From Candidatus Sumerlaeota bacterium (lineage in GTDB: Bacteria > Sumerlaeota > Sumerlaeia > SLMS01 > JAHLLQ01), in the NCBI GenBank assembly GCA_030156535.1, contig JASGMJ010000003.1, positions 1 through 64,000 of the forward strand: a stretch of 64,000 bases of DNA, read 5' to 3'. Numbering within the stretch: the stretch's first letter is position 1; the number at the start of each line of letters is the position of its first letter. The position numbers were made by a program, and so were the translations under genes. Shown piece after piece: positions 3 through 18,429 of the stretch. The notes beneath the pieces are model-generated. The model ran no database searches. It saw only the letters and a list, made by a program, of their open reading frames with translations, and was not told the DNA's origin.

Positions 3-530
3 AAACGCATTCTGGAACTCGGCTGCGGACTTGGTCAGTTTCTGGAGTGTTGCCGCCATCACGGCATCGAAGCCGTTGGTGTCGAGTACAGCGAAAAAGC
101 AATGCAGCGGCTGCGCCAGGAAGGCTTCGAGGTGTATCAGCACGACCTCGCCGAACCGTTGACCATGTTTCCGGACGAAAGTTTCGACGCGGTTTTTTCC
201 TTCCAAGTCATCGAGCATCTTGAACGCAAGGCGCAGGTGATGAGTCTGCGCGAATCCTATCGTGTGCTCCGCACGGGGGGGCAGATGCAGGTGGACTCGC
301 CCTGCCGCTTCTACAAGGAAGCACAGGACGCCCCCACACACATTGGCTTGCTCAGCCCGAAACAACTCCGGGATATGGCACAGGAAGCGGGCTTTTCGCG
401 TATCAACATGGGCTATAATTTGCGCCAGAAATTCGACGATATACCCGACGAAATCGTCGAGGAAATTTGGAAGAAGTATCAGCCGGATATTTTTGCGCAG
501 ACGGCCACCATTCTCGCCTACAAGGATTAG
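3..530 (+). CDS. Class I SAM-dependent methyltransferase, 5' end outside window
   Basis: Probably transfers a methyl group from S-adenosylmethionine to a sugar or lipid-linked glycan; the substrate is not visible. The frame is open from the first bases, so the N-terminus lies upstream. The glycine-rich motif I ILELGCGLGQF is at residues 3-13 of the visible part, an acidic strand-2 end (GVEYSE) follows, then FDAVFSFQVIEHL and RVLRTGGQ, a typical Methyltransf_11/23 pattern. An ATG at 102 would remove motif I and is not the start. It is followed 7 nt later by a second methyltransferase, so the two are probably co-transcribed at the edge of the polysaccharide locus. Confidence 0.85.
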   Translation, partial: KRILELGCGLGQFLECCRHHGIEAVGVEYSEKAMQRLRQEGFEVYQHDLAEPLTMFPDESFDAVFSFQVIEHLERKAQVMSLRESYRVLRTGGQMQVDSPCRFYKEAQDAPTHIGLLSPKQLRDMAQEAGFSRINMGYNLRQKFDDIPDEIVEEIWKKYQPDIFAQTATILAYKD

Positions 531-537
531 GGCGCCC

Positions 538-1371
538 ATGCAGGACAACGTCACCAATCCAGAAGAAGTTGCAAGCCTGAATGCCTCATACGGCAGTGAG
601 GGGAAACGCACGGTTCGGGACCCGCTTGCTTACACCACCGAGGCACGCCAGATCAGCGCGCGCAATACGGCTCAGCGCATTGACAATATTGTCGGCCTCC
701 AAGGCCAAAGGGTTCTGGAAATCGGATGCGGATATGGTGATCTTTCCAGCGAGATTGCCCGGAATTACGACGCGGAGGTTGTCGGGATCGATGTTCGCGA
801 CCTCCCGCAGTGGAAGGCGTTCAGTCATCCGAATCTTTCTTTTCAGCGCGTTGATCTCACCCAAAACGCGAATGTCTTTCCAGACAACAACTTCACGCGC
901 ATCATCTCACGAGCCGTCTGGGAACACATCAGGCATCCCTATACGGCTCTTTGCGAGAGCCAGCGCATGTTGCGGCCTGATGGAAAGAAGTATCTTTACG
1001 CCAATCTGTACCGTTCCTCGGTCGCCTCGCATCTCTACAAGCAGATTTACTTTCCGTGGCCGCATCTCGTTTACTCGCCAGAGACACTGGCAGCAATGCT
1101 GGGGAAGGAAGAGTTGGACTGGGCTTTCTGGGTCAACAAGTTGACTTACGCACAGTATCTCCAATACTTCAGGCAGCTCGGTTTTTACATTACCTACGAG
1201 GATTTGACAGTACGCAAGATCGATGAAGGCTTCTACAACGAGCACGAAAAAAAACTCGGGCTCTACCCCCGCTACGATCTTGCCTTGGATTTTTTCGAGG
1301 TCGTTCTGGAGTTCGAGCCCGAAAGGCCCAAAGAAGAAATTCCCGATCCTGTGTATCGGTTGAAAAGGTGA
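538..1371 (+). CDS. SAM-dependent methyltransferase (277 aa)
   Basis: A second class I methyltransferase, likely acting on a surface glycan or nucleotide sugar. VLEIGCGYG is at residues 59-67, the acidic ribose-binding loop is GIDVRD near 85, and RMLRPDGK matches the late Rossmann strand. The ATG at 538 was chosen because it lies 7 nt after the preceding stop with AGGG just upstream; the frame is open further 5' but that part overlaps the first methyltransferase. The C-terminal third (about residues 160-277) is not part of the core fold and carries aromatic-rich, charged sequence of unknown role. It converges with the heparinase gene with only 18 nt between, leaving no room for a terminator. 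Confidence 0.85.
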   Translation: MQDNVTNPEEVASLNASYGSEGKRTVRDPLAYTTEARQISARNTAQRIDNIVGLQGQRVLEIGCGYGDLSSEIARNYDAEVVGIDVRDLPQWKAFSHPNLSFQRVDLTQNANVFPDNNFTRIISRAVWEHIRHPYTALCESQRMLRPDGKKYLYANLYRSSVASHLYKQIYFPWPHLVYSPETLAAMLGKEELDWAFWVNKLTYAQYLQYFRQLGFYITYEDLTVRKIDEGFYNEHEKKLGLYPRYDLALDFFEVVLEFEPERPKEEIPDPVYRLKR

Positions 1372-3246: not shown

Positions 3247-5580
3247 TTACCCGCGGGCTGCGAGTGAGGCGTTTTGCCCGCACGCCCCCAGCCACTTCAT
3301 GATGTTGGGTTCCCAGTGGAGTTCCCTGTAGGCAAGGCTCATGCAGCGGCGAGCTATGGTAGCTTTGTCGGCGGCAGCGGATGCAGCGTGCAAGCAGATT
3401 TCGGCGAGGGGGAGGGTGGTGGCGTCGGTGGTGTCGAGCACGGCGGCGGGGAGCACCATGCCGGCGTTCTCGGCCGAGGCCAGGGCGCTGGAGTCGCCGA
3501 CGCAATCGGTCATCAGGACGGGGAGGCCGGCGGCGAGGTATTCGCCAAACTTGGTGGGCGAGGAGACGCGGTTGACCGGGTCGTCGCGGCGCAGCAGGAC
3601 GCCGACGTGGGCGGCGCGCAGGCGGCGGGGCACCTCGTCGTGGGGGACTTCGGTGAGGGTGAAGGCCTCGGCAGGGAGCCCGAACTCGGTGGCCCAGGTG
3701 TGGACTTTGGGGTGGTCGGCCTGGGGGACGAGCAGGAGGAAGCGGCAGCGGGCGTCGTGGCGGTGCAGGGCGGCGAACAGGGCGACCATTTCGCGGCCGC
3801 ATTGCCATCCGGCCATCGTGCCGGCGTAGGCGAAGACGAGGGTGTCGTCTGCGTCGGGTGTGGCGTGGGGGGCGGCGCGCAGGAAACGTTCGTCGGAGAC
3901 GCAGCAGGGGACGAGGACGTGGGGCACGCCGGGGTCGCCGTACTTGGCGTCGTAGTGGGCGCGCATGGCGTGTGAGACGAAGACGTTGAGATCGGTCTCG
4001 CGCAGGAGTTTCCGCTCGGTGCGTTCCATGGCGCGGATGCGGTTCTCGTGGGCGCCGTTCATGCGCTCTTCCTCGGGGATGACGCCGTGCCAGTCGATGG
4101 AGAAGAGGACGGCGGGGCGTTGCGGCTTGGCGAGGGCGGCGAGGCGGCCGCAGTAGAGGGCTTCGGCGTGGAGGACGTCGATGGCGTGGGTGTCGATGAG
4201 GCGGACGAGTTGCTGGAGCGGTTCGGCGAATTCGCGTGCGCCGGCGTCGATGGCGAAGAAGTCGGTGACGGGGAGGAAGTGGGTGTGGGCGCCGAGGGCG
4301 GCGAGTTCACGGGCGTGGGCGTCGAGGACGCCTTCGTCGCCGGTGTGGGGGATGAGGCAGGCGAGGTGGACGGTGCAGCCTGCCTGGACGAGTGCCTTGA
4401 TTTCCTGTTCGACGCGGATGCGATAGCCGCCGCGGTTGCCCGGGGGGATGTAGGCCAGGATGAGGAAGGTGGGGAGGATGGTGCGTTTGGCGTGCGTGGC
4501 GTGGTCTGTCGGGAGGACGATGGGATTGGGGGGGCGGTGGCAGGCCTGGAGGATCAGGGATTCGAGGCGTGCGCCGATGACGGCGTTGTCGAAGCGTGTT
4601 TGCGAGAAGTTGGCTGCGTAGGCGGATTCGGCGGCGAAGGCTTCGGGCGCGGTGTGTCGCCGGATCATGTCGGCGAGTGTGGCGACGGTGGAGGCGACGT
4701 ACTTGGGCGGATAGATGCGGTCGGCGCCGGTCCAGTTTCGGATGGCGGGGACGCATCCGGCGGCCATGCCCTCGGCGACGGCCTGGTGGGAGCCTTCGAA
4801 GTCGCTGACGGAGAGGATGTGGCCGACGCGTGCGTACCATTGGGGCATGTCGGGGCCGTGGGGGTCGAAGAAGACGCGGTCGCGCAGGCCGGCCTGGTCG
4901 ATGGCGTGGTAGACGGTGTCGTACCATTCCATTTCGCTCTTGCGGGCGTGCATCCAGGGGTAGTCTTCGGGGCGGTTGCCCTTGATGCGCAGGGTGTAGG
5001 CGTCGTCGTGGCGCAGGAGTTCCTGGAGGATGGCGACGGCGAGGTCGATGCGTTTGCGGGCGGGTACCATGCCGACAAAGCCGAGGGTGTGGCGGGCGGC
5101 GGTGTCCTGGCGCTTTTGTTCGACGCCGGCAGCGAGGGCGCCGGTGGCGTCGATGGGGTTGTAGACGAGGGCGGCGCGGTCGCGCAGGACGGGGAACTGG
5201 GCGCGCATCCAGTCGTAGATGTGCTGGGTGATGAGGACGAGTTTGTCGACGCGGCTCCAGTCGGTGCGGTAGATGAAGTCGAGGCGTTCGCGTGCCCACA
5301 TTTCCTGGAGGTGGAGACGGACGAGGAGGCGCTGGTCGTCGCGCTTGTGGTGGGAGTACCAGACGGCGTTGCCGAGCGCCCATTCACAGAAGATGACGTT
5401 GGCCCAGGCGAGGTTGCGTTCCGCCTCCTTGGTGTCGGTGAGGTGGTGGCCCTGGTGGTGTTCGAGGCGGACGTCGTAGAGTTCGCTGGCCTGGCAGCGC
5501 TCGATGAGCGGCGTGAGGAACTTGAAATCATGCCCTGCAAAGAGCAGGTTGATCTTCTTTGGATGTCGCAGGATTGCCAT
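3247..5580 (-). CDS. Tandem two-domain glycosyltransferase (777 aa)
   Basis: Two GT-B glycosyltransferase units in one chain, probably adding successive sugars to the polymer. Unit 1 (about residues 5-340) has FVGMVPARKRIDLAVAIL and SDFEGSHQAVAEGMAAG, a GT4-like nucleotide-binding end. Unit 2 (about 365-770) has NRGGYRIRVEQEIKAL at its N-terminus and AAGLPVLMTDCVGDS near its end. The frame can be extended to a TTG at 5598, but the ATG at 5580 is the better start codon; neither has a strong Shine-Dalgarno. It lies 31 nt after the fusion gene and 9 nt before the lyase gene, so the three are probably one transcript. Donor and acceptor sugars cannot be read from sequence. Confidence 0.82.
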   Translation of the reverse strand: MAILRHPKKINLLFAGHDFKFLTPLIERCQASELYDVRLEHHQGHHLTDTKEAERNLAWANVIFCEWALGNAVWYSHHKRDDQRLLVRLHLQEMWARERLDFIYRTDWSRVDKLVLITQHIYDWMRAQFPVLRDRAALVYNPIDATGALAAGVEQKRQDTAARHTLGFVGMVPARKRIDLAVAILQELLRHDDAYTLRIKGNRPEDYPWMHARKSEMEWYDTVYHAIDQAGLRDRVFFDPHGPDMPQWYARVGHILSVSDFEGSHQAVAEGMAAGCVPAIRNWTGADRIYPPKYVASTVATLADMIRRHTAPEAFAAESAYAANFSQTRFDNAVIGARLESLILQACHRPPNPIVLPTDHATHAKRTILPTFLILAYIPPGNRGGYRIRVEQEIKALVQAGCTVHLACLIPHTGDEGVLDAHARELAALGAHTHFLPVTDFFAIDAGAREFAEPLQQLVRLIDTHAIDVLHAEALYCGRLAALAKPQRPAVLFSIDWHGVIPEEERMNGAHENRIRAMERTERKLLRETDLNVFVSHAMRAHYDAKYGDPGVPHVLVPCCVSDERFLRAAPHATPDADDTLVFAYAGTMAGWQCGREMVALFAALHRHDARCRFLLLVPQADHPKVHTWATEFGLPAEAFTLTEVPHDEVPRRLRAAHVGVLLRRDDPVNRVSSPTKFGEYLAAGLPVLMTDCVGDSSALASAENAGMVLPAAVLDTTDATTLPLAEICLHAASAAADKATIARRCMSLAYRELHWEPNIMKWLGACGQNASLAARG

Positions 5581-5611
5581 GGCTTTTTGTTTCGCCAACC
5601 GTGGGTTGGGG

Positions 5612-8600
5612 TTACTCTGGAGTGATCATCAGTTCCTGATTTTCCGCGACTTCGTATCCGTACCGGCACAGAACGGAATAGGGAAGACGCGCGAGGTTCT
5701 CGCCATATGCGTCTTCGAGGAGTTGGGACGACAAGACTGATGATCGTGCAACCAGAGTACCCGATAGGACGGTGTCGGTGGGCAAGCCCCAATTCTTTTG
5801 GGTATTTTCGTTTCCGGGCGATGGTGGCAGGGTGCCGGTGATGGTGGTCTCGGGGTCGCCCATGACGGAGTGGCGGGCGTCGAGCATGTAGTTCGCGCCG
5901 TAGGCGCGGCGTGTGTCGCACAGGGCGATGATGGACTCGGGGAACCGGGCGTCGATCAGGGCCGGGATATTGTGCAGGGGAAGAGTGATGGTGTCGAACC
6001 CTGCGCGTTCGAGTGCCTGACGATGGGCGAGGACTTGCGCGTCGTGGGCCTCGATGCCGGGAACGAGGACGTTGGCCGGGCGGACACTCTGGGCGGCCAT
6101 TGCGCGGGCAAAGGAGTCGGGGTCGCCGGCGGGGTGGGCGACGACAACGATGGGAGGAGCGTCGAAGCTCTCGGTAGGCAGGCCGATCACCTCGCAGATG
6201 GTCTTCATGCGATGGGCGTAGGTGTGGCTGGAGTAGGTGTGACGGATGCCCTTTGCGGAGAGGTTGTACCAGGCGTCGTCGTCGGCGAACAGAGGAGCGA
6301 GGGCGGCACGGACCTGCTCAGCGGTTTCCACCTGGGGAACCAGCGAGCCAAAGAAGCGTTCGATGCCGAGCGATGGTGTTGTGACGACGGGCGTGCCGCA
6401 GGCGAGGAGTTCGAAGACCCGGCGCGAGAACATGGTGGGGGAATCATAGACGGAGTTGACGTTGAGGAAGGCGCGATAGCGCCGGTACGCGCGGATCATT
6501 TCGTCGTAGCTGAGCTTGCCGCGGATGTGCGGCTGGAGGTCGGCCGGGAACTCAAAGCGCTTTGCCTGGGGGCCGGTGGTGCCGTGCATCCGGTCGAAGA
6601 TGTCGAGCCCGAACTCGGTGGATGCGCGCAGCATGACGTCCATCCAATCACGGCGTTTCGCATACTCGTCGGCGTAGTAGGTGCCGGCAAAGCAGGTTTT
6701 GCGCAGGCGTTCCTGCTCCATCATGGGGTTGTGGATGGCGGGCTGGGCGGCAAAGGCGAGTGCCTCGATGCGGCGCACGTTCGGGCAGCGTTCGCGATAG
6801 CGCGGGATGCAGTTGGCGTCGGTGGTGAAGACGTACTGGAATTCGCTGGCGCGGTCGACAAAGCGGTCGAAATTCGGCGGGTCTTCCTTGTTCCAGAAGA
6901 CAGTGGGGATGTCGAGCTTGTGGCACCAGGCGAGGACGTCGGCGAGCTCATTGCCGGGAGGCGCGTTGTACTTCGCGACGCGGTAGAGCCAGGCGTCCTT
7001 GTTGCCGTGCCACGCGGACTCAACAAAGAGGAAGTCGATGTCCCCCTCGCTCATCAGCTCCAGCCAGTTGTCGGGGCGGATGGGAATGAGCTCGCATTCG
7101 GGGGCGAAGCAGGCGTGGGTGAAGTCGTCGAGGATGGAGGCGACCCGGAGTTTGCGGCGGGCGTTGCGCGGCTGTGTTTCAAAGGGGAGCGGCTCGATAC
7201 TGGCCGTGGTGTCGATGCTGACGGGGAGCTTGGCGGAAGGCTCGCCCGATGTGCTGGTGCGCGTGGGTTCCGGGGGGCTGGGTGCCTTCGGCGGAGTGGG
7301 TGCGGGAGCAGGTTTGGCCGCGGGAGTGGGTGCGGGAGCAGGTGTGGCCGTGGGAGTGGGTGCGGGAGCAGGTGTGGCCGTGGGAGTAGGGTTGAACTGC
7401 ACTTGGGGCGGCGGGGGCGTGGCGGCCACGGCGGCTGGCTCGGCCATGATGTTGCCGCCTTCGCGGCGCTGACGCAGGCCCTCGCGGGCGATACGGTAGA
7501 CATCGGCGGGGAGGCGCAGGGTGTTCATGCCCGGACGGAAAATGGCGCGCAGAGTTGTACGTCCGAACTGATAGCTGACCGAGTTGCGGATTCGGTTGTA
7601 GTTGTCGTGTTTGCGCGTGTTTTCGGCATAGAGGCGCCGGACCTCGGCGTCGCTGTTGGCGGCCTGCTGCTTGAGGGAATGGCAGCGTGCTTCAAGGCTG
7701 GAGGCCAGGGAGTTGGCCTCGCGCAATTGTCTGGCGGTGTCTTCGAGCGCCCGTGCTTTCTCGCGCATTTCCTGAAGATAGGATTCGCTGCTTGCCCTGA
7801 GTTTGTTGAGCTGTGTTTCGGCCTGGGCGAGACGTGCCTTGTGGCTGGCTGCTTCGGCCTGCGCCGCGCTGCTTTCGGATTGGGCGAGCCGCAGGGCGTT
7901 GGTGCGTTGGACGGCCTCGTCTTCAAGGACGCGAATTCGTTCGAGGGCGTCCGCGAGTTGCGCGTCGTTTTTCTTCAGGGTTTCCTGGGCTTGCCTGATT
8001 TCGGCGCGCAGGGCCTCGGCCTGCTGGTCCTTGCGTTTGAGGTCGTCTTCGAGTGTTTCGATCCAGGAGGTGGCATCGGCAAGGGCGCGTTTCTCGCGGC
8101 TTAGTTTTGCTTCGAGTTGAGTTGACTTCGCGTGGGCCGCGGCGTGCTCGCGTTCGAGAGTGCGCAAGCTCGACGTCAGCGCTTCAATTTCGCGCGCGTG
8201 GACTGCCTTCTCCGTCTCCATCTGTGAACGGAGACTTTGAAGCTGGGAGTCGGCGGCTTGGGCGCGGCTCTCGGCCTCGCGCAGTTCGCGGGCCCATTTC
8301 GCAACGGTCTGATCGTGTATGGAGGCGTGCTCTTTGCTGATGCGCAGGAGCTCGTGTGCGTGTTCGTCGCGCAGTTGCTGAAGACGTGATTCGAGTCCTT
8401 CGCGCAGTGCTTTTTTTGCGGCGATCTTTTCTCGAAGGGCTTGAACTTCTGTCTGGAGAGCACCCCGTTCCTTCACCGCAGCATCGAGTTTGTCGTTCAG
8501 GTGCTTGAGTTCTGTTTCGCGGGCTTGAAGGAGGGCCGCCGTTTCGCTGGCTTTGGCGTGCAGGGCACGTGCTTCTTGTTCAAGGGCGGAACGGGCGGCC

Positions 8601-9601
8601 TTGAACTCCTCCTGGCGTTCTTCGAGGCTGGAAGCTCGGCTGCGGGCTTCGGCGAGGAGCGCAGCGGTTTCGGCGCCAGCGTGCTCCTTTGCGCGGAGTT
8701 CCTTTTCGATGGTGCTGAGGCGGGCCGTGCGTTCGGCGGCTTCTGCCTTGAGTTGCTCGATCTGTTTGGCGAGAAATGCCTGCTGCACTTCGCATTCGCG
8801 GGCATGCTGTTTGGCGGCTTCTGCGGCTTCGCGTGCGGCCCGGGCGTCGGTTTCGGCCTTCTTGCGCAACTCGCCGACTTCCTTGACAATCGCGTCCTGC
8901 CTGGCCAATCGGTCGACAATCTCCCGTTGTTTGTCGAGGTAGTTGTTCTCGGCGTCGAGCAGGCCCTTGTCGGTCAGTTCCAGCAACTTGCGCAAAAGGG
9001 TGCGGTCTGCCTCGGGAGAGAGGGCAGGCGGAGGGGTCTGGTATTCGCCGACCGCACGGACGTACTTGCCTGCAACATCGAGGTGGCAGATCGATGCATG
9101 GGGAGCAAGAAGGTCGTGAATGGTGCGCAGGGTGTGGGTGCTCTTGTGATCCTGGTCGCGATGAACGCCAAAGGGAACGGTGATGACGATCCGGCCGCCT
9201 GGATTGAGATAGCGCAGAACGTGGTCGAGGAGAACCGTGGGGTCGGAGAAGTGCTCGAGAACTTCGGAGAGGATCAGGGTGTCGAACGTTCCCTCGGGCT
9301 CGTAGTCGAAGATGTCGGCACAGACGAAGGTGCAGCGGTCGGAAATGAAGGGGAACTCGCGCGCCTGATAGTCCTTGGCGTACTCGATGGCCTTGGGATT
9401 GAGGTCGATTCCCAGGACTTTGAAGCCTTCGCGGGCGAGAAGCATGGGAACGATGCCCTGGCTGCATCCGACATCGAGCACGCGCTTGCCTTTGGCCTGC
9501 GCACAGAGCCAATGAACACGGTCGCGTGCGATCTCCTGGAGACGGGCGTCCCAGATTTCACGGTTGTAGAGTTCCAGGATGCGATCGTTGTTCATTCCCA
9601 T
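5612..9601 (-). CDS. Methyltransferase / long coiled coil / glycosyltransferase fusion (1329 aa)
   Basis: A three-part cytoplasmic protein. Residues about 30-200 are a class I methyltransferase (VLDVGCSQG, GIDLNPKA, TLILSEVLEHF, NPGGRIVI). Residues about 225-665 are almost uninterrupted Glu/Lys/Ala/Gln heptad sequence, a predicted coiled coil. About 715-790 is a Pro/Ala/Thr linker with repeats. About 815-1310 is a CgeB-like GT-B domain (FWNKEDPPNFDRF, CFAGTYYADEYAKRRDW, SRRVFELLACGTPVVTT). The ATG at 9601 is preceded by GGGAG at 8 nt spacing; an upstream in-frame TTG at 9667 is less likely. A methyltransferase joined to a long coil recalls WbdD, which caps and measures O-antigen exported by Wzm/Wzt, and an exporter lies 4 kb away. 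The ruler role is inference; a C-terminal GT replaces the WbdD kinase. Confidence 0.85.
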   Translation of the reverse strand: MGMNNDRILELYNREIWDARLQEIARDRVHWLCAQAKGKRVLDVGCSQGIVPMLLAREGFKVLGIDLNPKAIEYAKDYQAREFPFISDRCTFVCADIFDYEPEGTFDTLILSEVLEHFSDPTVLLDHVLRYLNPGGRIVITVPFGVHRDQDHKSTHTLRTIHDLLAPHASICHLDVAGKYVRAVGEYQTPPPALSPEADRTLLRKLLELTDKGLLDAENNYLDKQREIVDRLARQDAIVKEVGELRKKAETDARAAREAAEAAKQHARECEVQQAFLAKQIEQLKAEAAERTARLSTIEKELRAKEHAGAETAALLAEARSRASSLEERQEEFKAARSALEQEARALHAKASETAALLQARETELKHLNDKLDAAVKERGALQTEVQALREKIAAKKALREGLESRLQQLRDEHAHELLRISKEHASIHDQTVAKWARELREAESRAQAADSQLQSLRSQMETEKAVHAREIEALTSSLRTLEREHAAAHAKSTQLEAKLSREKRALADATSWIETLEDDLKRKDQQAEALRAEIRQAQETLKKNDAQLADALERIRVLEDEAVQRTNALRLAQSESSAAQAEAASHKARLAQAETQLNKLRASSESYLQEMREKARALEDTARQLREANSLASSLEARCHSLKQQAANSDAEVRRLYAENTRKHDNYNRIRNSVSYQFGRTTLRAIFRPGMNTLRLPADVYRIAREGLRQRREGGNIMAEPAAVAATPPPPQVQFNPTPTATPAPAPTPTATPAPAPTPAAKPAPAPTPPKAPSPPEPTRTSTSGEPSAKLPVSIDTTASIEPLPFETQPRNARRKLRVASILDDFTHACFAPECELIPIRPDNWLELMSEGDIDFLFVESAWHGNKDAWLYRVAKYNAPPGNELADVLAWCHKLDIPTVFWNKEDPPNFDRFVDRASEFQYVFTTDANCIPRYRERCPNVRRIEALAFAAQPAIHNPMMEQERLRKTCFAGTYYADEYAKRRDWMDVMLRASTEFGLDIFDRMHGTTGPQAKRFEFPADLQPHIRGKLSYDEMIRAYRRYRAFLNVNSVYDSPTMFSRRVFELLACGTPVVTTPSLGIERFFGSLVPQVETAEQVRAALAPLFADDDAWYNLSAKGIRHTYSSHTYAHRMKTICEVIGLPTESFDAPPIVVVAHPAGDPDSFARAMAAQSVRPANVLVPGIEAHDAQVLAHRQALERAGFDTITLPLHNIPALIDARFPESIIALCDTRRAYGANYMLDARHSVMGDPETTITGTLPPSPGNENTQKNWGLPTDTVLSGTLVARSSVLSSQLLEDAYGENLARLPYSVLCRYGYEVAENQELMITPE
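7291..7380 (-). repeat. Three 30-bp tandem repeats coding the Pro/Ala/Thr linker
   Basis: Three near-identical 30-bp units begin at 7291, 7321 and 7351 (plus-strand core gtgggtgcgggagcaggt). They encode repeated Pro-Ala-Pro-Thr decapeptides in the linker between the coiled coil and the C-terminal glycosyltransferase of the fusion protein. The units differ at only a few bases, so copy number is likely to vary by slippage. Confidence 0.9.
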
Positions 9602-9675: not shown

Positions 9676-9840
9676 TTGGGCAGTCGGGGAGGCCGTTCAG
9701 GAAGGGATGGCTGGTACTCTCGGCTTGCCACGGTGGACGAAGTCCGTCCGATTAGCGCCAGACTTTCCCGCGCGCGGGGCCAGTCCGGCGGCGCCTTTTT
9801 CGGCGGCCTACTTTCCGTACCGGATTGGCAAGAGGCAGGC

Positions 9841-10887
9841 ATGAAGGTTCTCGTTACCGGAGGAGCCGGTTTTATCGGAGTTCATACGGCGCGGCGCTTT
9901 GCACAGCGCGGCGATGACGTGGTGGTATTCGATAATTTGTCGCGGGTGGGTGCCCGGGAGAATCTGGCGTGGCTTCAGGAAGCTGCCCCCTCCGTGTGCT
10001 TCATGCCCGGCGATGTCACGCGCGCCGAGGACCTTGCGGAGCTCGCCCGCCTGCACCCGGAAATCGAGGCAATCATCCATCTGGCAGGGCAGGTGGCGGT
10101 GACGACTTCCGTCGCGGATCCCGTCGCCGACTTCCGTGCCAATGCCGAGGGCACGCTGAATGTCTTGGAGATGGCCCGGACGGCGCTCAGCAGCCCAATC
10201 GTCCTGTATGCGTCGACGAACAAGGTTTATGGGGGGCTGGAAGGCGTCGCTGTCGAAAAGCGGGGGCGGCGCTACGAGTTCCGCGATTTCACCCGGGGAA
10301 TTGGCGAATCGACCCCCCTTGATTTTCATAGTCCCTATGGATGCTCCAAGGGCGCGGCGGACCAGTACGTTCGCGACTATCATCGCATCTACGGGCTTCC
10401 CACGGTTGTGCTGCGCCAATCGTGCATTTACGGAACCCGTCAGTTCGGCATCGAGGATCAGGGGTGGGTGGCCTGGTTCACCATCGCGACGCAGCTGAAA
10501 CGGCCCGTGACGATCTTCGGCGACGGGTGCCAGGTGCGCGATGTCCTTTTCATCGATGATCTGGTGAGGGCGTACGAGGCGGCGATCGACAGGATCGACG
10601 TTTCGGCGGGGCGGATTTATAACGTGGGTGGTGGACCGGACTATGCCATTTCCCTGCTGGAATTTCTTGATTTGCTGAGCGAGGCGGCGGAACTGGTGAT
10701 CCAGCCCCTTTCGGCCGACTGGCGCCCCGGGGATCAGCGGGTCTATGTGTCGGACATTGCCCGGATACGAACGGAGCTGGGGTGGGAGCCTCGCATCGGC
10801 CCGGCCGAAGGCATTGAGCGCCTTGTTGAATGGGTGCGGGAGAATCGTGAGATGATCGCGCCGATTCTGGCGGCAGGGGCGCGGTAG
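9841..10887 (+). CDS. NAD-dependent sugar epimerase, CDP-paratose 2-epimerase-like (348 aa)
   Basis: Extended short-chain dehydrogenase that makes a nucleotide sugar for the polymer. The NAD-binding motif GGAGFIG is at residues 7-13, and the catalytic YxxxK is Y166-K170 in SPYGCSKGAADQYV. ASTNKVYGG and RQSCIYGTRQFGIEDQGW match CDP-paratose 2-epimerases (RfbE/Tyv) more closely than GalE. The ATG at 9841 starts directly at the Rossmann strand MKVLVTGG; the frame is open upstream but that part is not homologous. It is divergent from the fusion gene and converges with the GT4 gene. No CDP-sugar 4,6-dehydratase or cytidylyltransferase is in the window, so the exact sugar is uncertain. Confidence 0.85.
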   Translation: MKVLVTGGAGFIGVHTARRFAQRGDDVVVFDNLSRVGARENLAWLQEAAPSVCFMPGDVTRAEDLAELARLHPEIEAIIHLAGQVAVTTSVADPVADFRANAEGTLNVLEMARTALSSPIVLYASTNKVYGGLEGVAVEKRGRRYEFRDFTRGIGESTPLDFHSPYGCSKGAADQYVRDYHRIYGLPTVVLRQSCIYGTRQFGIEDQGWVAWFTIATQLKRPVTIFGDGCQVRDVLFIDDLVRAYEAAIDRIDVSAGRIYNVGGGPDYAISLLEFLDLLSEAAELVIQPLSADWRPGDQRVYVSDIARIRTELGWEPRIGPAEGIERLVEWVRENREMIAPILAAGAR

Positions 10888-10898
10888 CAGGCGCCGTC

Positions 10899-12263
10899 CT
10901 ATTTTCGATGCTTTATCCTGGGCGAGTTGCAGGCGAACGCGTAGGCGCGTTTCGTCGCCTCCACGCTGTGCCCCCAGCTCTTCTCGCGGACGATGGCCTG
11001 TGCGGCGGCGGCTCCCAGACGCTCGCACAGCGGTGCATCGAGCAGGAGCCGCGCGGCCTGCTCGACGAAGTCGGCGGGGTCGCCACTGCGAAAGAGCCAA
11101 CCCGTTTCGCCGGGTGTGATGATTTCGCTCATCGCGGGCAGGTCGGGAAGGAGGACGGCTTTGCCGAGCGCCATCGCCTCAAAGGGCTTGAGGGGAGAGA
11201 CAAGACTGGTCACGCGCGAGGGCAGGCGCGTGATGGCGAGCACGTCGATGATGCTGTAGGCCGACGCAATCTGCTTGTTGGGAATGGGGCCATGGAAGAG
11301 GGCGCGGTCGGCCAGTCCCTGGGCGGCAAGGCGTTGCTGCAAAGCATCCGCGTAGTCCTGGTCTCCGCCACCGACGATGAGCAGACGAGCGGAGGGGACG
11401 CGGGCGAGCAGCGCACCGAAGGCATCGACGAGAAAGTGTATGCCTTCGAGTTTGCGCAGACTCCCGACATAGCCGAGCACGGGCGTTTCCGGCGTGGCTC
11501 CAAGGCGCGCGCGGATTTCGCGCACGAGTTCAATATTCTCGGTGGCACGAAGTTGCTCCGTCAGGCTGGCGGCGGCGCCGTTGGGGACGACAAAAATCTT
11601 CTCCTCGGGGACTCCTCGGCGGGCAATGTCGCAGGCAAGCGCCTGGGTGATTGTGAGCACGGCATCGGCACGCTTGACGATCGCCGTCTCCATGAAGCGG
11701 AAGCCGCGATAGATCGGGGAGCCTTCCTTGAACTTGCCTCCCTCGACGGCGGTGTCCTCCCACAACCCACGCATCTCATAGACGAACGGCACGCCAAGCT
11801 TCCGCGCGGTCCACAGGGAGGGGAAACCGTTGCGGAAGGGAGTGTGTGCGTGGATCAGGTCGCAGTTCTCGCGCCGCGCCAATTCCACCAGGCGCGGGTA
11901 GAAGGTACACCGGGCCTGCGGCAGGCTGCGCGCGGCGGTGATCAGTTGAAAGACGAACCGGGGAACGTACCAGTAGGCGCTGCGATCGGCCAGCGTCTCT
12001 CCCACCGAAAGGGCGTTGGGGTCGGTGGTGTCTCCCGGGGCTGCGCGGAAACGCGGATTGGGAACACGATGGTAGGTAATGCCGTCGATCGAGAAGGGCT
12101 CGGGCGTATTCAGGCAGGCGAGTGGGTAGTAGGGGGACGTGATGCCGACGGGTGCGAGCCCGGCCTCGACTTGGGCGCGCAGCAGCGCATGGGTGCGCAC
12201 CGCATAGCCATTCAGGTGCGGGGGAGAAACAGAGAGAACATGCAGGGGACGTTGAACGGCCAT
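10899..12263 (-). CDS. GT4-family glycosyltransferase (454 aa)
   Basis: Retaining GT-B glycosyltransferase of the GT4 type, expected at the inner face of the cytoplasmic membrane. The N-terminal domain has HVLSVSPPHLNGYAVRTHAL and the acceptor-side HAHTPFRNGFPSLW. The C-terminal donor domain has VLGYVGSLRKLEGIHFLVDA and KPFEAMALGKAVLLPDLPAM with the usual acidic EX7-type region. The ATG at 12263 has GAGG 4-8 nt upstream; the frame extends 47 codons further but that sequence overlaps the sulfotransferase gene and looks random. It is the fourth gene of a minus-strand wzm-wzt-sulfotransferase-GT4 run. Confidence 0.88.
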   Translation of the reverse strand: MAVQRPLHVLSVSPPHLNGYAVRTHALLRAQVEAGLAPVGITSPYYPLACLNTPEPFSIDGITYHRVPNPRFRAAPGDTTDPNALSVGETLADRSAYWYVPRFVFQLITAARSLPQARCTFYPRLVELARRENCDLIHAHTPFRNGFPSLWTARKLGVPFVYEMRGLWEDTAVEGGKFKEGSPIYRGFRFMETAIVKRADAVLTITQALACDIARRGVPEEKIFVVPNGAAASLTEQLRATENIELVREIRARLGATPETPVLGYVGSLRKLEGIHFLVDAFGALLARVPSARLLIVGGGDQDYADALQQRLAAQGLADRALFHGPIPNKQIASAYSIIDVLAITRLPSRVTSLVSPLKPFEAMALGKAVLLPDLPAMSEIITPGETGWLFRSGDPADFVEQAARLLLDAPLCERLGAAAAQAIVREKSWGHSVEATKRAYAFACNSPRIKHRK

Positions 12264-12285
12264 GGCACCTCGTCCGGGAGGGTGT

Positions 12286-13146
12286 CTATGTTGCGGGAGC
12301 GAGGGCTTCGCGGACCATGCCGTCATAGGGGGTGTCCGCAAAGAATCGCAGGAGTTCGCGCTGATTGCTGACGAGGTCTCTTTCGCTCGTGATGGACTTT
12401 GCAAGCGGGAGCTGGCGTGGCAGGTTCTTGAGTTCGGCTTCCTTCATGAGCTTCGCCAACTTCCTGGGAATATTCGGGGCGAGGAGATTGTTGCCGACGA
12501 ACATTTCCTCGTAGAACAGTTTCACAAGGCGCTTATGGCCTTCAAGCGCCCGGTCGATCATTTCATTGTCCTGCTGGAGAGCGTTCATTCGGCGCAGCAT
12601 CTTTGCAGGATCGATTCTCAGGGAGACGCCTGAGGTATCGAGCTTTTCGCCGGCACGCAGGTGCCAGGTGCCGGTTTCCTTCGCGACGATTGTGGAGAGC
12701 GCCTGCTTGAACAAGTTGGCGCGCACCAGACGGATGATCGGATGATTCCCCTTCACCAGGAGGTCGAGAAGAAAGGGAGGCTGCGAGGGGCTGTGCCAGA
12801 TGGTGTTGAAGTGATGCAGGCTGTTTTGCTTCACGTCGATGAAGACGTATCGTTTCGTCGAACGCTGGTGGCAGTATTCAAGGAAGCGGGTGAAGAGTTC
12901 TGTTTTGTTTTCCTTGGTGGGGAAGAGATAGAGCTGGGCGCATTCCGGCTCGGTCTTGAGAAAGTGGAAGAAGGAGTAGTAGTCGCCCTTCTCCGGGTGA
13001 AAGACTTCGCCGTAGGGATCGAACAGGCCGCTGGTGGCCAGGGTCTCGCGCAGCACCGTCGTCCCGCTCCGCTGGGGGGCGATGAGAAAGAGGAAGCGAA
13101 CAGGTTCGCCATCTCCGAAGAGCTTGGAGCGCAATCGCTCAAGCAT
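12286..13146 (-). CDS. Stf0-like sulfotransferase (286 aa)
   Basis: Predicted PAPS-dependent sulfotransferase modifying the glycan. The 5'-phosphosulfate-binding loop APQRSGTTVL is at residues 23-32. HPIIRLVRANLFKQALS followed by TGTWHL resembles the 3'-phosphate-binding region and TGxW element of Stf0 (trehalose 2-sulfotransferase) enzymes. The ATG at 13146 overlaps the stop of the ABC ATPase gene by 8 nt and has GAGAG upstream; a TTG two codons earlier is also possible. Tight coupling to the exporter ATPase suggests that the exported polymer or its cap is sulfated. Genes for making PAPS are not in the window. It could instead be a general P-loop sulfotransferase. Confidence 0.75.
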   Translation of the reverse strand: MLERLRSKLFGDGEPVRFLFLIAPQRSGTTVLRETLATSGLFDPYGEVFHPEKGDYYSFFHFLKTEPECAQLYLFPTKENKTELFTRFLEYCHQRSTKRYVFIDVKQNSLHHFNTIWHSPSQPPFLLDLLVKGNHPIIRLVRANLFKQALSTIVAKETGTWHLRAGEKLDTSGVSLRIDPAKMLRRMNALQQDNEMIDRALEGHKRLVKLFYEEMFVGNNLLAPNIPRKLAKLMKEAELKNLPRQLPLAKSITSERDLVSNQRELLRFFADTPYDGMVREALAPAT

Positions 13147-13912
13147 TGGCAAAGCTCTCTTCGTACTGGCGGATCACGTCGGCGGGATCGCCGCAGGCTT
13201 TGACCTCGCCGCGTTCGAGCCACAGGCACCGGTTGCACATGGCCTTGATGGAAGGCATGGAATGGGAGATGACGACAATGCAGCGGCACTTCGCCATCAT
13301 GGATTGAATGCGGGCTTCGCATTTTTTGCGGAAGCCGGAGTCGCCCACGCTGAGGACTTCGTCGAGCAGGAGGATGTCGGGTTCGATGGAGGCAGCAATC
13401 GAGAAGGCGAGGCGGGCGCGCATTCCACTGGAGTATGCGCCGATCGGCTCGTCGAAGAAATCACCGAGTTCGGAAAAGTCACGGATCTCGTCGATCATGG
13501 CGTCCATGCGTTCACGCGAGAACCCGAGAAACGAGCCGAAATAGTACGTGTTGTCCCGGCCTGAAAGACCGGGCTGGAACATGCCTCCGAGTGAGAGGAG
13601 GGCGCTCACGTCGCCGTTCGTGATGAGCGTTCCCTCGTCCGGCTCGAAGATACCCGATAGAACCAGTGACAGCGTGCTTTTTCCCGCTCCGTTTCGCCCA
13701 ATGACGCCCAGCACGTCCCCGCGCATGCATTGGAAGGAGACGTTGCGCAGCGCCCAGTATTGCCCGGCCTTGCGCCTGTGATGGAGGCGCTTGAACAGGG
13801 TGCGGCGGCGGCTGCTGGGGTAGTAGAGCCCCAAGTCGCGCGCCTCCAGGACGAGCTCGGGAGCAGCCGTGGTTTCTGCGGACGGGCCAGCCGGATTGTC
13901 GGATTGTTCCAT
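13139..13912 (-). CDS. wzt: Polysaccharide ABC exporter ATPase (Wzt/KpsT type, 257 aa)
   Basis: Nucleotide-binding subunit that drives export of an undecaprenol- or lipid-linked polysaccharide with the adjacent permease. Walker A GRNGAGKST is at residues 72-80, the signature YSSGMRA at 160-166 and Walker B ILLLDE at 180-185, with H-loop SHSM. SALLSLGGMFQPGLSGRDN is typical of this subfamily. At 257 aa it lacks the roughly 150-aa C-terminal carbohydrate-binding domain found in O9a-type Wzt, so it resembles KpsT/TagH-like or O2a-type ATPases. The first 20 residues are a Pro/Ala/Glu extension. The gene starts 9 nt after wzm. Confidence 0.92.
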   Translation of the reverse strand: MEQSDNPAGPSAETTAAPELVLEARDLGLYYPSSRRRTLFKRLHHRRKAGQYWALRNVSFQCMRGDVLGVIGRNGAGKSTLSLVLSGIFEPDEGTLITNGDVSALLSLGGMFQPGLSGRDNTYYFGSFLGFSRERMDAMIDEIRDFSELGDFFDEPIGAYSSGMRARLAFSIAASIEPDILLLDEVLSVGDSGFRKKCEARIQSMMAKCRCIVVISHSMPSIKAMCNRCLWLERGEVKACGDPADVIRQYEESFANA

Positions 13913-13921
13913 GGTTCTTTC

Positions 13922-14728
13922 CTAGGCGGCAGAGGCCTTCAGCAGGCGGCGGTCAAGCAATTGGTACGTTCTGTATCCCGTGTACAGCAAGACGCTCGTG
14001 TGAATGCACATCACACCCCACCACCACATGGGAATCATTTGGTGTGACCAGATTGCGTGGCGATAACTGGTAAAGAGAATCGCGAAAGGATTGACGAACA
14101 TGTAGACATCGACGAGCCAGGGGCTGCTGGCAAAATGCTTTTCGAGAAGGTCGAGTCCGTAGAGCGAGGGGCTGAGGTAGAAGAGGAACATGACGACATG
14201 GTTGACGTAGATGCTCAGGTCGTAAATCAGAGCGCCCAGGCAGGCCATAAGCAGCGTGATGCCGAGCATCATGGCGGCCTGAATGATGACGAGAGGGACG
14301 AGTTGCAGCGCGTAAAAAGTGGGGTGAACGCCCATCCCTGCAGCGGCCACGAGCAGGGCCGTGAGGCCGAAGGCAAACAGCACGCCCTCCTCGGCCACGA
14401 GCGCAATCGGGAGCACCGCGGTGGGAAACGGAATCGAGCGCATTGTTGCGCCGTGCGTCTTGAAGATGCGTATTCCGTTGGAAAAGCAGCGGGTGAAATA
14501 CTTCCAACTCACGACCGCGCAGCCGATGAACACGGGGTAGGGCGAGTAGTTGTGGGTCGAGCGGATGACAGAGAACACAAACCAGTAGATGATGACCATG
14601 ATAATGGGGTCGATCAGCCACCAGAGATAGCCCAGACGGTTGTCCACGGCGGAGGACTTGAGGCGAAAGCGCACAATCTCGGCGATGAGTTTGCGTTTGC
14701 GCAGCAGGTTCGGCAGGTTCGACTTCAT
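13922..14728 (-). CDS. wzm: Polysaccharide ABC exporter permease (Wzm type, 268 aa)
   Basis: Inner-membrane subunit of the exporter, an ABC2_membrane protein. About six hydrophobic segments are visible, beginning with LGYLWWLIDPIIMVIIYW, and the amphipathic N-terminal stretch LRKRKLIAEIVRFRLKSS is typical of Wzm/KpsM. RYSHAIW-type motifs near the C-terminus appear as SYRHAIWSHQ. It partners with the ATPase starting 9 nt downstream. The ATG at 14728 opens the minus-strand operon wzm-wzt-sulfotransferase-GT4; a 106-nt gap separates it from wecB. Confidence 0.92.
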   Translation of the reverse strand: MKSNLPNLLRKRKLIAEIVRFRLKSSAVDNRLGYLWWLIDPIIMVIIYWFVFSVIRSTHNYSPYPVFIGCAVVSWKYFTRCFSNGIRIFKTHGATMRSIPFPTAVLPIALVAEEGVLFAFGLTALLVAAAGMGVHPTFYALQLVPLVIIQAAMMLGITLLMACLGALIYDLSIYVNHVVMFLFYLSPSLYGLDLLEKHFASSPWLVDVYMFVNPFAILFTSYRHAIWSHQMIPMWWWGVMCIHTSVLLYTGYRTYQLLDRRLLKASAA

Positions 14729-14834: not shown

Positions 14835-16007
14835 TTATTCCGCAGCCGGGTCGAAGGCGTCAAAGGGCTCGCCTGCCAGCAAGGCAACAATGCGGCGGGC
14901 GGCCATGCCGTCGCCATAAGGATTGTGGCTCCGGCGTGATGCTTCGAAGACGGCCGGATTGTCCAACAATTCCGTGGCCGAGCGCACAATGGCCTCCTTG
15001 TCGGTTCCGACGAGGCGAACGGTTCCCGCGTCCACTGCCTCGGGGCGCTCGGTTGTCGTTCGTGTCACCAGAACGGGTTTGCCAAGCGAGGGGGCCTCTT
15101 CCTGCACGCCTCCCGAATCCGTGACGATCAGATGAGCGCGGTCCATCAGCCAGACGAACGAAAGGTAGTCCTGTGGGGCGATGAGATGGACGTTTGCGCA
15201 GGAACCCAGAACGCGGTTCACCGGATCCTTCACATTGGGATTCAAGTGGACAGGGTACGCAATTTCCACGTCGTCGCGTTCGGCGAGTTGCTTCAGTGCC
15301 TCGCACATTTCCTCAATGCCGCCGTCGAAGCTTTCCCGGCGGTGCCCGGTGACCAGAATGAGGCGCTTGCCGGGATTGAGGAAGGCAAAGCGCTCGGCCA
15401 TCGTGGTGGCCAGGGGCGCTGTGCGTACCCGCTCGGCGACCTGCAGTAGGGCGTCGATGACGGTGTTGCCGGTAACGACGATGCTCTCAGGGGAATAACC
15501 TTCAGCCAAGAGGGCCTGGCGGGCGCGCTGCGTCGGGGCGAAATGGTGGCGTGCCATGACAGCCGTCACCCGGCGATTCATTTCCTCGGGCCATGGTGCG
15601 TACAGATCACCGGTTCTCAGTCCCGCCTCGACGTGCCCGACGGCGACACCGGCATAGAAGGCCGCCAGCGTGGCGGCCATGACGGTTGTCGTGTCGCCCT
15701 GAACGAGAACGATGTCGGGCTTCCATTCGTCCAGAACGCCGCCCATCGCCTCGATGACGCGGCTTGTCAGGCCACCGAGCGTTTGATTCGCCCGCATCAG
15801 ATCGAGATCAAAGTCGGGGCGGATTTCGAAAATATCGAGAACCTGGTCCATCATCTGGCGATGCTGGGCAGTGACGCAGACCCGGGCGTCGAATCCGGGA
15901 TGACGGGAAAGCTCCTGGACAACGGGCGCCATCTTGATGGCTTCGGGGCGCGTGCCGAAGACGGAAAGGATGCGCTTGTAGGCGGGACGGGGATTGTTGG
16001 GATGCAT
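14835..16007 (-). CDS. wecB: Non-hydrolysing UDP-N-acetylglucosamine 2-epimerase (390 aa)
   Basis: Interconverts UDP-GlcNAc and UDP-ManNAc in the cytoplasm, supplying ManNAc or ManNAcA for the polymer. SVFGTRPEAIKMAPVV is at residues 15-30, followed by AQHRQMMDQVL, VQGDTTTVMA, HVEAGLRTGD, VTGHRRESFDGG and DSGGVQEEAPSLGKPVLV, all hallmarks of the WecB family; length is normal. It is transcribed toward wzm. The start ATG at 16007 begins a short basic-Pro leader before the first strand. No UDP-ManNAc dehydrogenase (wecC) is in the window. Confidence 0.95.
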   Translation of the reverse strand: MHPNNPRPAYKRILSVFGTRPEAIKMAPVVQELSRHPGFDARVCVTAQHRQMMDQVLDIFEIRPDFDLDLMRANQTLGGLTSRVIEAMGGVLDEWKPDIVLVQGDTTTVMAATLAAFYAGVAVGHVEAGLRTGDLYAPWPEEMNRRVTAVMARHHFAPTQRARQALLAEGYSPESIVVTGNTVIDALLQVAERVRTAPLATTMAERFAFLNPGKRLILVTGHRRESFDGGIEEMCEALKQLAERDDVEIAYPVHLNPNVKDPVNRVLGSCANVHLIAPQDYLSFVWLMDRAHLIVTDSGGVQEEAPSLGKPVLVTRTTTERPEAVDAGTVRLVGTDKEAIVRSATELLDNPAVFEASRRSHNPYGDGMAARRIVALLAGEPFDAFDPAAE

Positions 16008-16765: not shown

Positions 16766-18223
16766 TCAGGATTTCTCGCCGAACAGTTCGCCGAAGATGT
16801 ACTTCGGCGTCATGTAGAGAATCTTGAGGTCGAACACCGTGGAGACGTTGAAGGCGTACAACAGGTCGTAGAACAGTTTGTACTCGAAGTGCGTGTCGTA
16901 GGAACCCTTGACCTGGGCGAGGCCGGTGAGGCCGGGGCGCACAATGTGGCGCAGGTTGTAGGACGGGTTCTCGGCCACGAATTCCTTGACGCGCTCGGGG
17001 CGTTCGGGGCGGGGGCCGACGAGGCTCATGTCGCCCTTGAGGACGTTCAATAGTTGCGGCAGTTCGTCCAGATGCGTGCGGCGCAGTACCCAGCCGATGC
17101 GCAGCACGCGGGTGTCGCGGCCGTGGCAGATGACGGCGCCCGTCACCTTCTCGGCATCCTTGATCATCGTGCGAATCTTGTAGAGGGTGAAGTGGCGTCC
17201 ATCGCGGCCCACGCGCGGCTGGGTGTAGATCAGCTCGCCGCCGTGCAGCAGACGGTACCATACCCAGAGGAAGCCGAGCATGGGCAGGGAGATGAGCAGT
17301 CCGCCCGCCGCGAAGGCGATGTCGGAGGCGCGCTTCACGGCCATCGTGGAGAGCGAGAGGTTGGACTTGTTCACCTCGACGAAGGGGACGTTGTTGATTT
17401 CGCAGGTGGCGAGTTGGGTGCTGATGGGTTCGAGGCCGCGGGGGAGAACCTTGATGCTGACCGAGTGGTTGCTGATGGCGGTGATGACGCGGCGCTTGAG
17501 GTCGCGCTCGCCCGTCACGATGAGCTCGTCGATCTTGTATTGATTCAGGATGTCGTTGATTTCGCCGGGGGTGCCGAGGAAGGCGACGTTGCCGGTGAGG
17601 TCCTTGCAGCGCTGGTCGTCCACATAGCCGACGATGCGGCGGAACGGGGAGTTGCCGCGCGCGCGCACGACGTCCAGCCCCTCGCGGGTCATGCCAGCGA
17701 CGATGGCGCGGTGCTGGAGCAGGGCCTTCTTCTCGATGACGATGTTGAGGAGCACGCGCCAACCGGCGAGGAAGAACAGCTCGCAGACGCCCTTGGCCAG
17801 CAAGGCGCCGCGCGAGAAGCGGTAGGTGTCCGGATCAACGTAGAAAATCACCGCGGGAACGAGCAGGACCTCGATGACGGTGGTGAGCACGGCGTACTCC
17901 ATGATCGTGAGGACGGTCGTGCTCTTGGTCTCGAACGCCGAGTCATTGTAGAGCTTGTAGAAGAAGAGGGCGCCGAGCTTGGCCAGCACATACCAGACGA
18001 AGAAATCGCGGTAGAACAGCGAGTTGATCTCGGGCACCTTGAAGTTGAAGTACACCAGGTTGGCGGCGAACAGGGCGGCGACGATCATCACGGCGTCGAC
18101 CAGGAAGGCCAGACCGAGGACGAAGTACTTCTTTTTGCGCAGATGGAAGAGCGACGTCAGGACGGCGGCGGAAGGGCGCGCGGCCGCTCGCTTCTGCGTT
18201 TGCGTTTCCGTCAGTGCAGACAT
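16766..18223 (-). CDS. Polyprenyl-phosphate sugar-1-phosphate transferase (485 aa)
   Basis: Starts lipid-linked glycan synthesis by moving a sugar-1-phosphate to undecaprenyl phosphate in the inner membrane. It has four or five N-terminal membrane helices (from [20 protein letters not shown]), a Rossmann-like CoA_binding_3 region (residues about 170-290), a further hairpin helix, and the C-terminal bacterial sugar-transferase domain. That domain carries [46 protein letters not shown] and VGPRPERPE. The ATG at 18223 was chosen because the earlier open frame is not hydrophobic. This is the WbaP/ExoY-like PHPT class. It probably primes the polymer of this locus, although Wzm/Wzt systems more often use WecA. 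Confidence 0.92.
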
Positions 18224-18429
18224 GAAAGGCTTCTTTATTTCATCAGGCCAGGGCCTGGGTGGTGTGTGAGCGCTTTGCGAACGAGCGGCGGCGCCCCACA
18301 TTGAGGAGGCTGGAAAGGGCGGTCGTCCTCATTCTATTGCCCTTAGGGTAGGAGAGCGGGGTACGAGTTCAAGGGGATTCTGGGGGGGGCAGGAAGGCTT
18401 GCCGGGCTTGGGCGGGAGGCCACGCGGCG

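Follow-up and report, generated by a model that had tools for sequence, protein, structure and literature searches.

A 64,000-nucleotide stretch at the start of contig JASGMJ010000003.1 (C29) of a Candidatus Sumerlaeota bacterium, referred to here as the window, encodes a protein that joins a methyltransferase (MT), a long coiled coil and a CgeB-type glycosyltransferase (GT). The best reading of this MT-coil-GT protein is that of a variant of the terminator-ruler-polymerase proteins, working in a similar way for a Wzm/Wzt surface-glycan locus, to which we assign a probability of about 0.5. We infer that the protein contacts the membrane, takes part in polymerisation, caps the chain and measures its length. 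It is classed as a variant because the Wzt of the window lacks a C-terminal carbohydrate-binding module (CBM), a defining feature of characterised cap-dependent systems.

Domain organisation of the MT-coil-GT protein

The sequence AAGGGAG, which resembles a ribosome binding site, is located close upstream of the start codon. The gene and its protein were divided into the following features.

5612..9601, minus strand: MT-coil-GT gene, a single open reading frame of 1,329 amino acids (ATG at 9601, stop at 5612)
9032..9601, minus strand: class I S-adenosylmethionine (SAM) methyltransferase domain, residues 1-190 (Pfam Methyltransf_23; aligned with five homologues)
7583..9013, minus strand: coiled coil, residues ~197-673, with three short breaks (heptads, Pro-free run, AlphaFold2)
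7457..7585, minus strand: amphipathic post-coil segment SYQFGRTTLRAIFRPGMNTLRLPADVYRIARE, residues 673-715 (hydrophobic moment, homologues)
7178..7456, minus strand: Pro/Ala-rich linker, residues 716-808
7293..7392, minus strand: 30-bp tandem repeat, 3.3 copies with 95% matches, coding for TATPAPAPTP-type units
6170..7156, minus strand: CgeB-type GT domain, residues ~816-1144 (Pfam Glyco_trans_1_2)
5615..6169, minus strand: C-terminal GT-A-like domain, residues 1145-1329, DxD-type acidic motif lost (alignment)

The MT domain matched Pfam Methyltransf_23 with an E-value of 4e-22 (residues 19-163) and contains the unbroken SAM motif VLDVGCSQG. No kinase domain was found among the Pfam matches of the protein, and the coil starts at residues ~197-215, straight after the MT.

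The longest Pro-free run comprises 493 residues, 70% of which are A, E, L, K, Q or R. In the best phase, the heptad a/d excess reached 0.407 compared with 0.225 +/- 0.020 in composition shuffles (~9 standard deviations), and the heptad phase was steady across long parts of the coil. AlphaFold2 predicted helices at residues 196-304, 310-424, 432-572 and 578-673, mostly with pLDDT values of 60-90. The helices are interrupted near residues 305, 428 and 575, and the second and third breaks lie close to heptad phase shifts. This model of residues 1-729 was calculated from a single sequence and is usable for the coil only, the MT part having a pLDDT <50. The heptad statistic, the Pro-free run and the predicted helices together argue for a helical rather than a disordered coil. 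Its length is ~455 residues, compared with the ~440 estimated in an earlier annotation made from the letters of the window (the sequence-only reading). That reading had described one protein composed of an MT, a long coil, a Pro/Ala linker and a CgeB-like GT, with the coil separating the two enzymes. The single reading frame, the Pfam matches, the heptads and the AlphaFold2 model bear out this description, including the distal position of the MT and that of the GT across the coil.

Behind the coil, the hydrophobic moment falls into the 95th-99th percentile of the protein and is high at residues 674-704. A related x(L/F)G...LPxx(L/V) segment follows the coil in homologues, and the amphipathic segment, which the earlier annotation did not mention, is a candidate membrane contact. 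For a survey of the post-coil motif, a three-row profile proved too weak. The 30-bp repeat of the adjoining linker is the top-scoring tandem array of the window by a wide margin. A tuning of linker length by these repeats, as suggested in the sequence-only reading, is not supported; the close homologues L062 and L063 have no such repeats. Matches to residues ~707-810 in related genomes were rejected as low-complexity Pro/Ala linker.

The GT domain matched Glyco_trans_1_2 (PF13524; 7e-20, above cut-off, residues 1008-1136), and the MT-coil-GT protein is the best match to this family within the 4.3-Mb source genome. The family blocks WNKEDP, FAGxYY and SPTMxxRRxFE are kept. The sugar donor is perhaps UDP-ManNAc(A), a guess based on the recurrent wecB/wecC linkage. 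The C-terminal GT-A-like domain, likewise not mentioned in the earlier annotation, is degenerate: alignment revealed CDTR in the window at the position of the acidic motif DDDD, which is intact in Brachybacterium and Citrobacter. A PDB profile search with the C-terminal region gave no match, and Foldseek with an AlphaFold model of the C-terminal half (three sequences, mean pLDDT 45) returned nothing usable.

Homologues and variation of coil length

Co-linear MT-coil-GT proteins were found in four Actinomycetota genomes and on one Leisingera plasmid. Among 397 genomes sampled from Actinomycetota, the phylum of Brachybacterium, exactly three encoded a member of the MT subfamily at E <= 1e-25, with E-values near 1e-44 throughout and a full-length MT-coil-GT protein in each case; the fourth was found by a closer look within one class. 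The actinobacterial proteins at L062 and L063 are 39-40% (MT) and 49% (GT) identical to the window protein and have lost the GT-A acidic motif as well. Their genes follow the order wzm-wzt-MT-coil-GT with a partner GT4 downstream. At L061:9344-12013 the decay is reversed, the CgeB-type GT being divergent and the GT-A acidic motif DDDD intact. On the Leisingera sp. NJS201 plasmid NZ_CP038235.1, the fusion is contained in a single open reading frame of 1,650 residues (L025:8315-13261). The database protein WP_254695232.1 lacks the MT because its start was annotated too far downstream.

In Cytobacillus spongiae, the MT, CgeB-type GTs, the partner GT, a heparinase/alginate-lyase family protein and a nucleotide sugar dehydrogenase are separate proteins of one cluster near sporulation genes (L054:17016-25047, between spoVS and cotE), which suggests a spore-surface glycan. 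Furthermore, the MTs are mutual best matches among 72,556 plasmids, each of three starting points returning the others first. Because of this relationship and the clustering of the separate Cytobacillus proteins, MT and GT can be assigned to one pathway. Close homologues of the MT or the GT were absent from 40 genomes of the window's own phylum, and no relatives of the GT were found in phages or viral contigs. As judged from the compared sequences, the MT-coil-GT architecture is not due to chance and is conserved in at least three phyla.

Further capsule and long-coil loci were seen elsewhere. Citrobacter freundii plasmid p1C73 (L021) and E. coli plasmid pCE1537-B (L029) each carry a capsule locus that appears complete and includes an ABC exporter; in Citrobacter, where the plasmid was typed as conjugative, the locus adjoins a Tn4401 transposon. 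Caballeronia insecticola encodes an 827-amino-acid long-coil protein beside ABC export genes (L028:4917-7400), which has no Pfam match, the post-coil motif near the N-terminus and an apparent methyltransferase-like fold at the C-terminus.

The Pro-free coil runs measured 493 residues in the window, 263 in Leisingera and 100 in both L062 and L063, with a heptad signal in each. The L061 and L067 coils, judged by eye, comprise about 70-85 residues, that of L061 being broken by prolines. Coil length varies ~five-fold among the homologues. Within the Leisingera coil (L025:9226-9691), a 229-nt direct repeat, 97% identical and spaced by 237 nt, indicates a recent in-frame lengthening by 79 residues through tandem duplication.

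A coil of drifting length without function, merely serving as an oligomerisation scaffold or organiser of a membrane complex, would fit the growth of the Leisingera coil by duplication, in particular since 79 is no multiple of 7. Non-fused GTs of the same family (Citrobacter, Nonomuraea) have short coils and a similar post-coil motif, which is consistent with this explanation as well. We regard it as quite unlikely, since the long steady heptad phase in the window would be unexpected if length and register were unconstrained, and since coils of this type are established rulers in E. coli O9a and Klebsiella O12 (PMC11231755).

The Wzm/Wzt locus and the proposed function

The MT-coil-GT gene is located 3.5 kb from wzm and wzt. 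The first base of the window is the start of the contig, and the surrounding glycan cluster may therefore be cut. The other genes noted in this part of the window are as follows.

102-1371, plus strand: two further small methyltransferases, the first apparently cut off where the contig ends
1390..3237, minus strand: heparinase II/III-family protein, with counterparts in the clusters of Leisingera and Cytobacillus
3247..5598, minus strand: GT4-GT4 protein, adjoining the MT-coil-GT gene
9826..10887, plus strand: NAD-dependent sugar epimerase/dehydratase, interrupting the minus-strand series
10899..12404, minus strand: GT4 glycosyltransferase
12286..13152, minus strand: weakly sulfotransferase-like protein (Stf0, under the Pfam cut-off)
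13139..13912, minus strand: Wzt, 257 amino acids, without C-terminal CBM
13922..14728, minus strand: Wzm permease
14835..16007, minus strand: WecB, UDP-GlcNAc 2-epimerase (TIGR00236, 493 bits vs a cut-off of 210)
16766..18301, minus strand: polyprenyl glycosylphosphotransferase, the initiating enzyme (TIGR03025, above cut-off)

The N-terminal half of the GT4-GT4 protein has homologues in the Cytobacillus cluster and, downstream of the MT-coil-GT gene, in L062 and L063. The association with Wzm/Wzt, which the sequence-only reading had named as a check, was seen in the window, L062 and L063; the Leisingera locus carries a Kps-type transporter, and neither L061 nor Cytobacillus showed the association. 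That the neighbourhood is coincidental and the product of the protein is not exported by the Wzm/Wzt of the window is highly improbable. The plus-strand gene and two more between Wzt and the MT-coil-GT gene would suit a coincidence, as would the Cytobacillus homologues without a nearby transporter. Against it stand the two actinobacterial homologues directly behind wzm-wzt and a Rossellomorea GT beside the same transporter type as in the window.

No Wzt_C domain, the CBM, was detected in the window, and three were found above cut-off elsewhere in the same genome, which demonstrates the sensitivity of the test. These three belong to Wzt proteins at L041-L043 (contigs C16, C25 and C33), and because of them cap-read glycans are probably produced by other loci of this bacterium. 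No long coil comparable to that of the window was present near these CBM-bearing Wzt loci.

In the proposed terminator-ruler-polymerase mechanism, the glycosylphosphotransferase would start an undecaprenyl-pyrophosphate-linked chain, the amphipathic segment would place the GT end at the membrane, and the GT together with the neighbouring GT4 enzymes would lengthen the chain. A coil rises by ~0.15 nm per residue. The coil could hold the MT up to ~67 nm off (455 residues x ~0.15 nm). Only a chain that reaches the MT would be methylated at its non-reducing end and stop growing. Export would proceed via a Wzt blind to the cap, so that the methyl group would set the length without licensing export.

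Several observations weigh against this mechanism. The MT is by its profile matches a generic class I MT without specific kinship to WbdD: WbdD (4azw) ranked only 60th among the PDB matches (E 2e-5), after many generic MTs. The Wzt of the window lacks a CBM, unlike the Wzts of all characterised terminated O-antigen systems. Wzm/Wzt are absent within ~9.5 kb of the actinobacterial locus L061, and no ABC transporter is close to the Cytobacillus cluster. Some homologues have coils as short as about 75-100 residues, and in Cytobacillus the MT lacks a coil. Moreover, the GTs that are fused to an MT are not monophyletic; at least three changes are forced, and the MT-coil part must have been repeatedly lost or moved between GTs.

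Part of this evidence would also suit a fused modifying enzyme, whose MT decorates chain sugars or each repeat unit and whose coil acts as a tether that brings many positions within its range, with neither termination nor a ruler. Such an enzyme would agree with a Wzt devoid of a cap-reading CBM and with the free, coil-less MT of Cytobacillus. It would also agree with the GT-A acidic motif kept in L061 and L067, as the catalytic parts then vary freely around the same MT. We consider this explanation rather unlikely, since a heptad-regular coil of 455 residues is odd for a tether that provides reach alone, and since the MT occupies the distal position found in proven terminators (PMC11231755).

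Should the terminator-ruler-polymerase reading be true, chain termination would be uncoupled from cap-dependent export, whereas every characterised terminated O-antigen system couples the two. The ruler principle would also extend past the lipopolysaccharide O-antigens for which it was established. Provided that the coil acts as a ruler, its natural variants (about 75-100, 263 and 493 residues) offer one architecture in which the scaling of coil length with chain length can be followed. Only tentatively do we extend the reading to a cross-phylum polymerise-measure-cap family including Actinomycetota, with CBM-less Wzm/Wzt, a cap that sets length without licensing export, and a ruler series from ~75-100 to nearly 500 residues; such a family is possible though doubtful.

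Comparison with known systems

The sequence-only reading had proposed a single-protein polymerise-and-cap ruler. The domain order, which agrees with that of O7 ORF6 and O12 WbbB, the helical coil, its varying length among homologues and the Wzm/Wzt neighbours support a protein of this kind; the CBM-less Wzt does not, and the novelty of the proposal falls away, as polymerisation and capping in one protein are already known from Klebsiella O7 ORF6, O12 WbbB and WsaE. Klebsiella pneumoniae O7 ORF6, a proven terminator and polymerase, combines an MT, a kinase, a coil and two GTs (PMC11231755). It shares with the window protein the N-terminal MT, the central coil, the C-terminal GTs and the Wzm/Wzt locus (PMC11231755). 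In contrast, the MT and the coil of O7 ORF6 are separated by a kinase plus a carbohydrate-binding domain, and its GTs are two GT2 modules, whereas the window protein has no kinase, no CBM, and one CgeB-type GT followed by a degenerate GT-A domain. Klebsiella O12 WbbB terminates with a Kdo cap and polymerises in one protein (PMC11231755). The Klebsiella O12/Raoultella WbbB proteins resemble the window protein in that a single polypeptide unites terminator, coil and polymerase GTs, but their terminator is a Kdo transferase (GT99) instead of an MT and their GT modules are different.

Geobacillus WsaE consists of an N-terminal MT and two GTs, and its locus encodes Wzm/Wzt and an initiator of the WbaP type (PMC2943079). 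It differs in its two rhamnosyltransferase domains, and a long coil was not reported (PMC2943079). The CgeB/DUF3880-type GTs of capsule and cell-wall loci are 33-49% identical to the GT domain of the window and often adjoin wecB/wecC and an ABC exporter; most of them lack an MT, and their coil is short or absent.

E. coli WbdD (O9a, O8) shares the N-terminal MT and the coil, and its membrane-associated amphipathic end has a candidate counterpart in the window protein. The suggestion that a GT replaces the WbdD kinase is not supported: both WbdD and O7 ORF6 have their kinase placed between MT and coil, a slot that is empty here, and the GT is found beyond the coil. The O8 WbdD itself has no kinase. 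WbdD comprises 708 residues with the coil within 460-708 (PMC3482155). It differs further in having at most ~250 residues beyond the kinase and no GT, the polymerase WbdA being recruited, and in a Wzt with CBM. The coil of the window protein is nearly twice as long as the entire C-terminal region of WbdD, and its amphipathic segment occupies the same place, behind the coil, as the membrane-associated amphipathic helix of WbdD.

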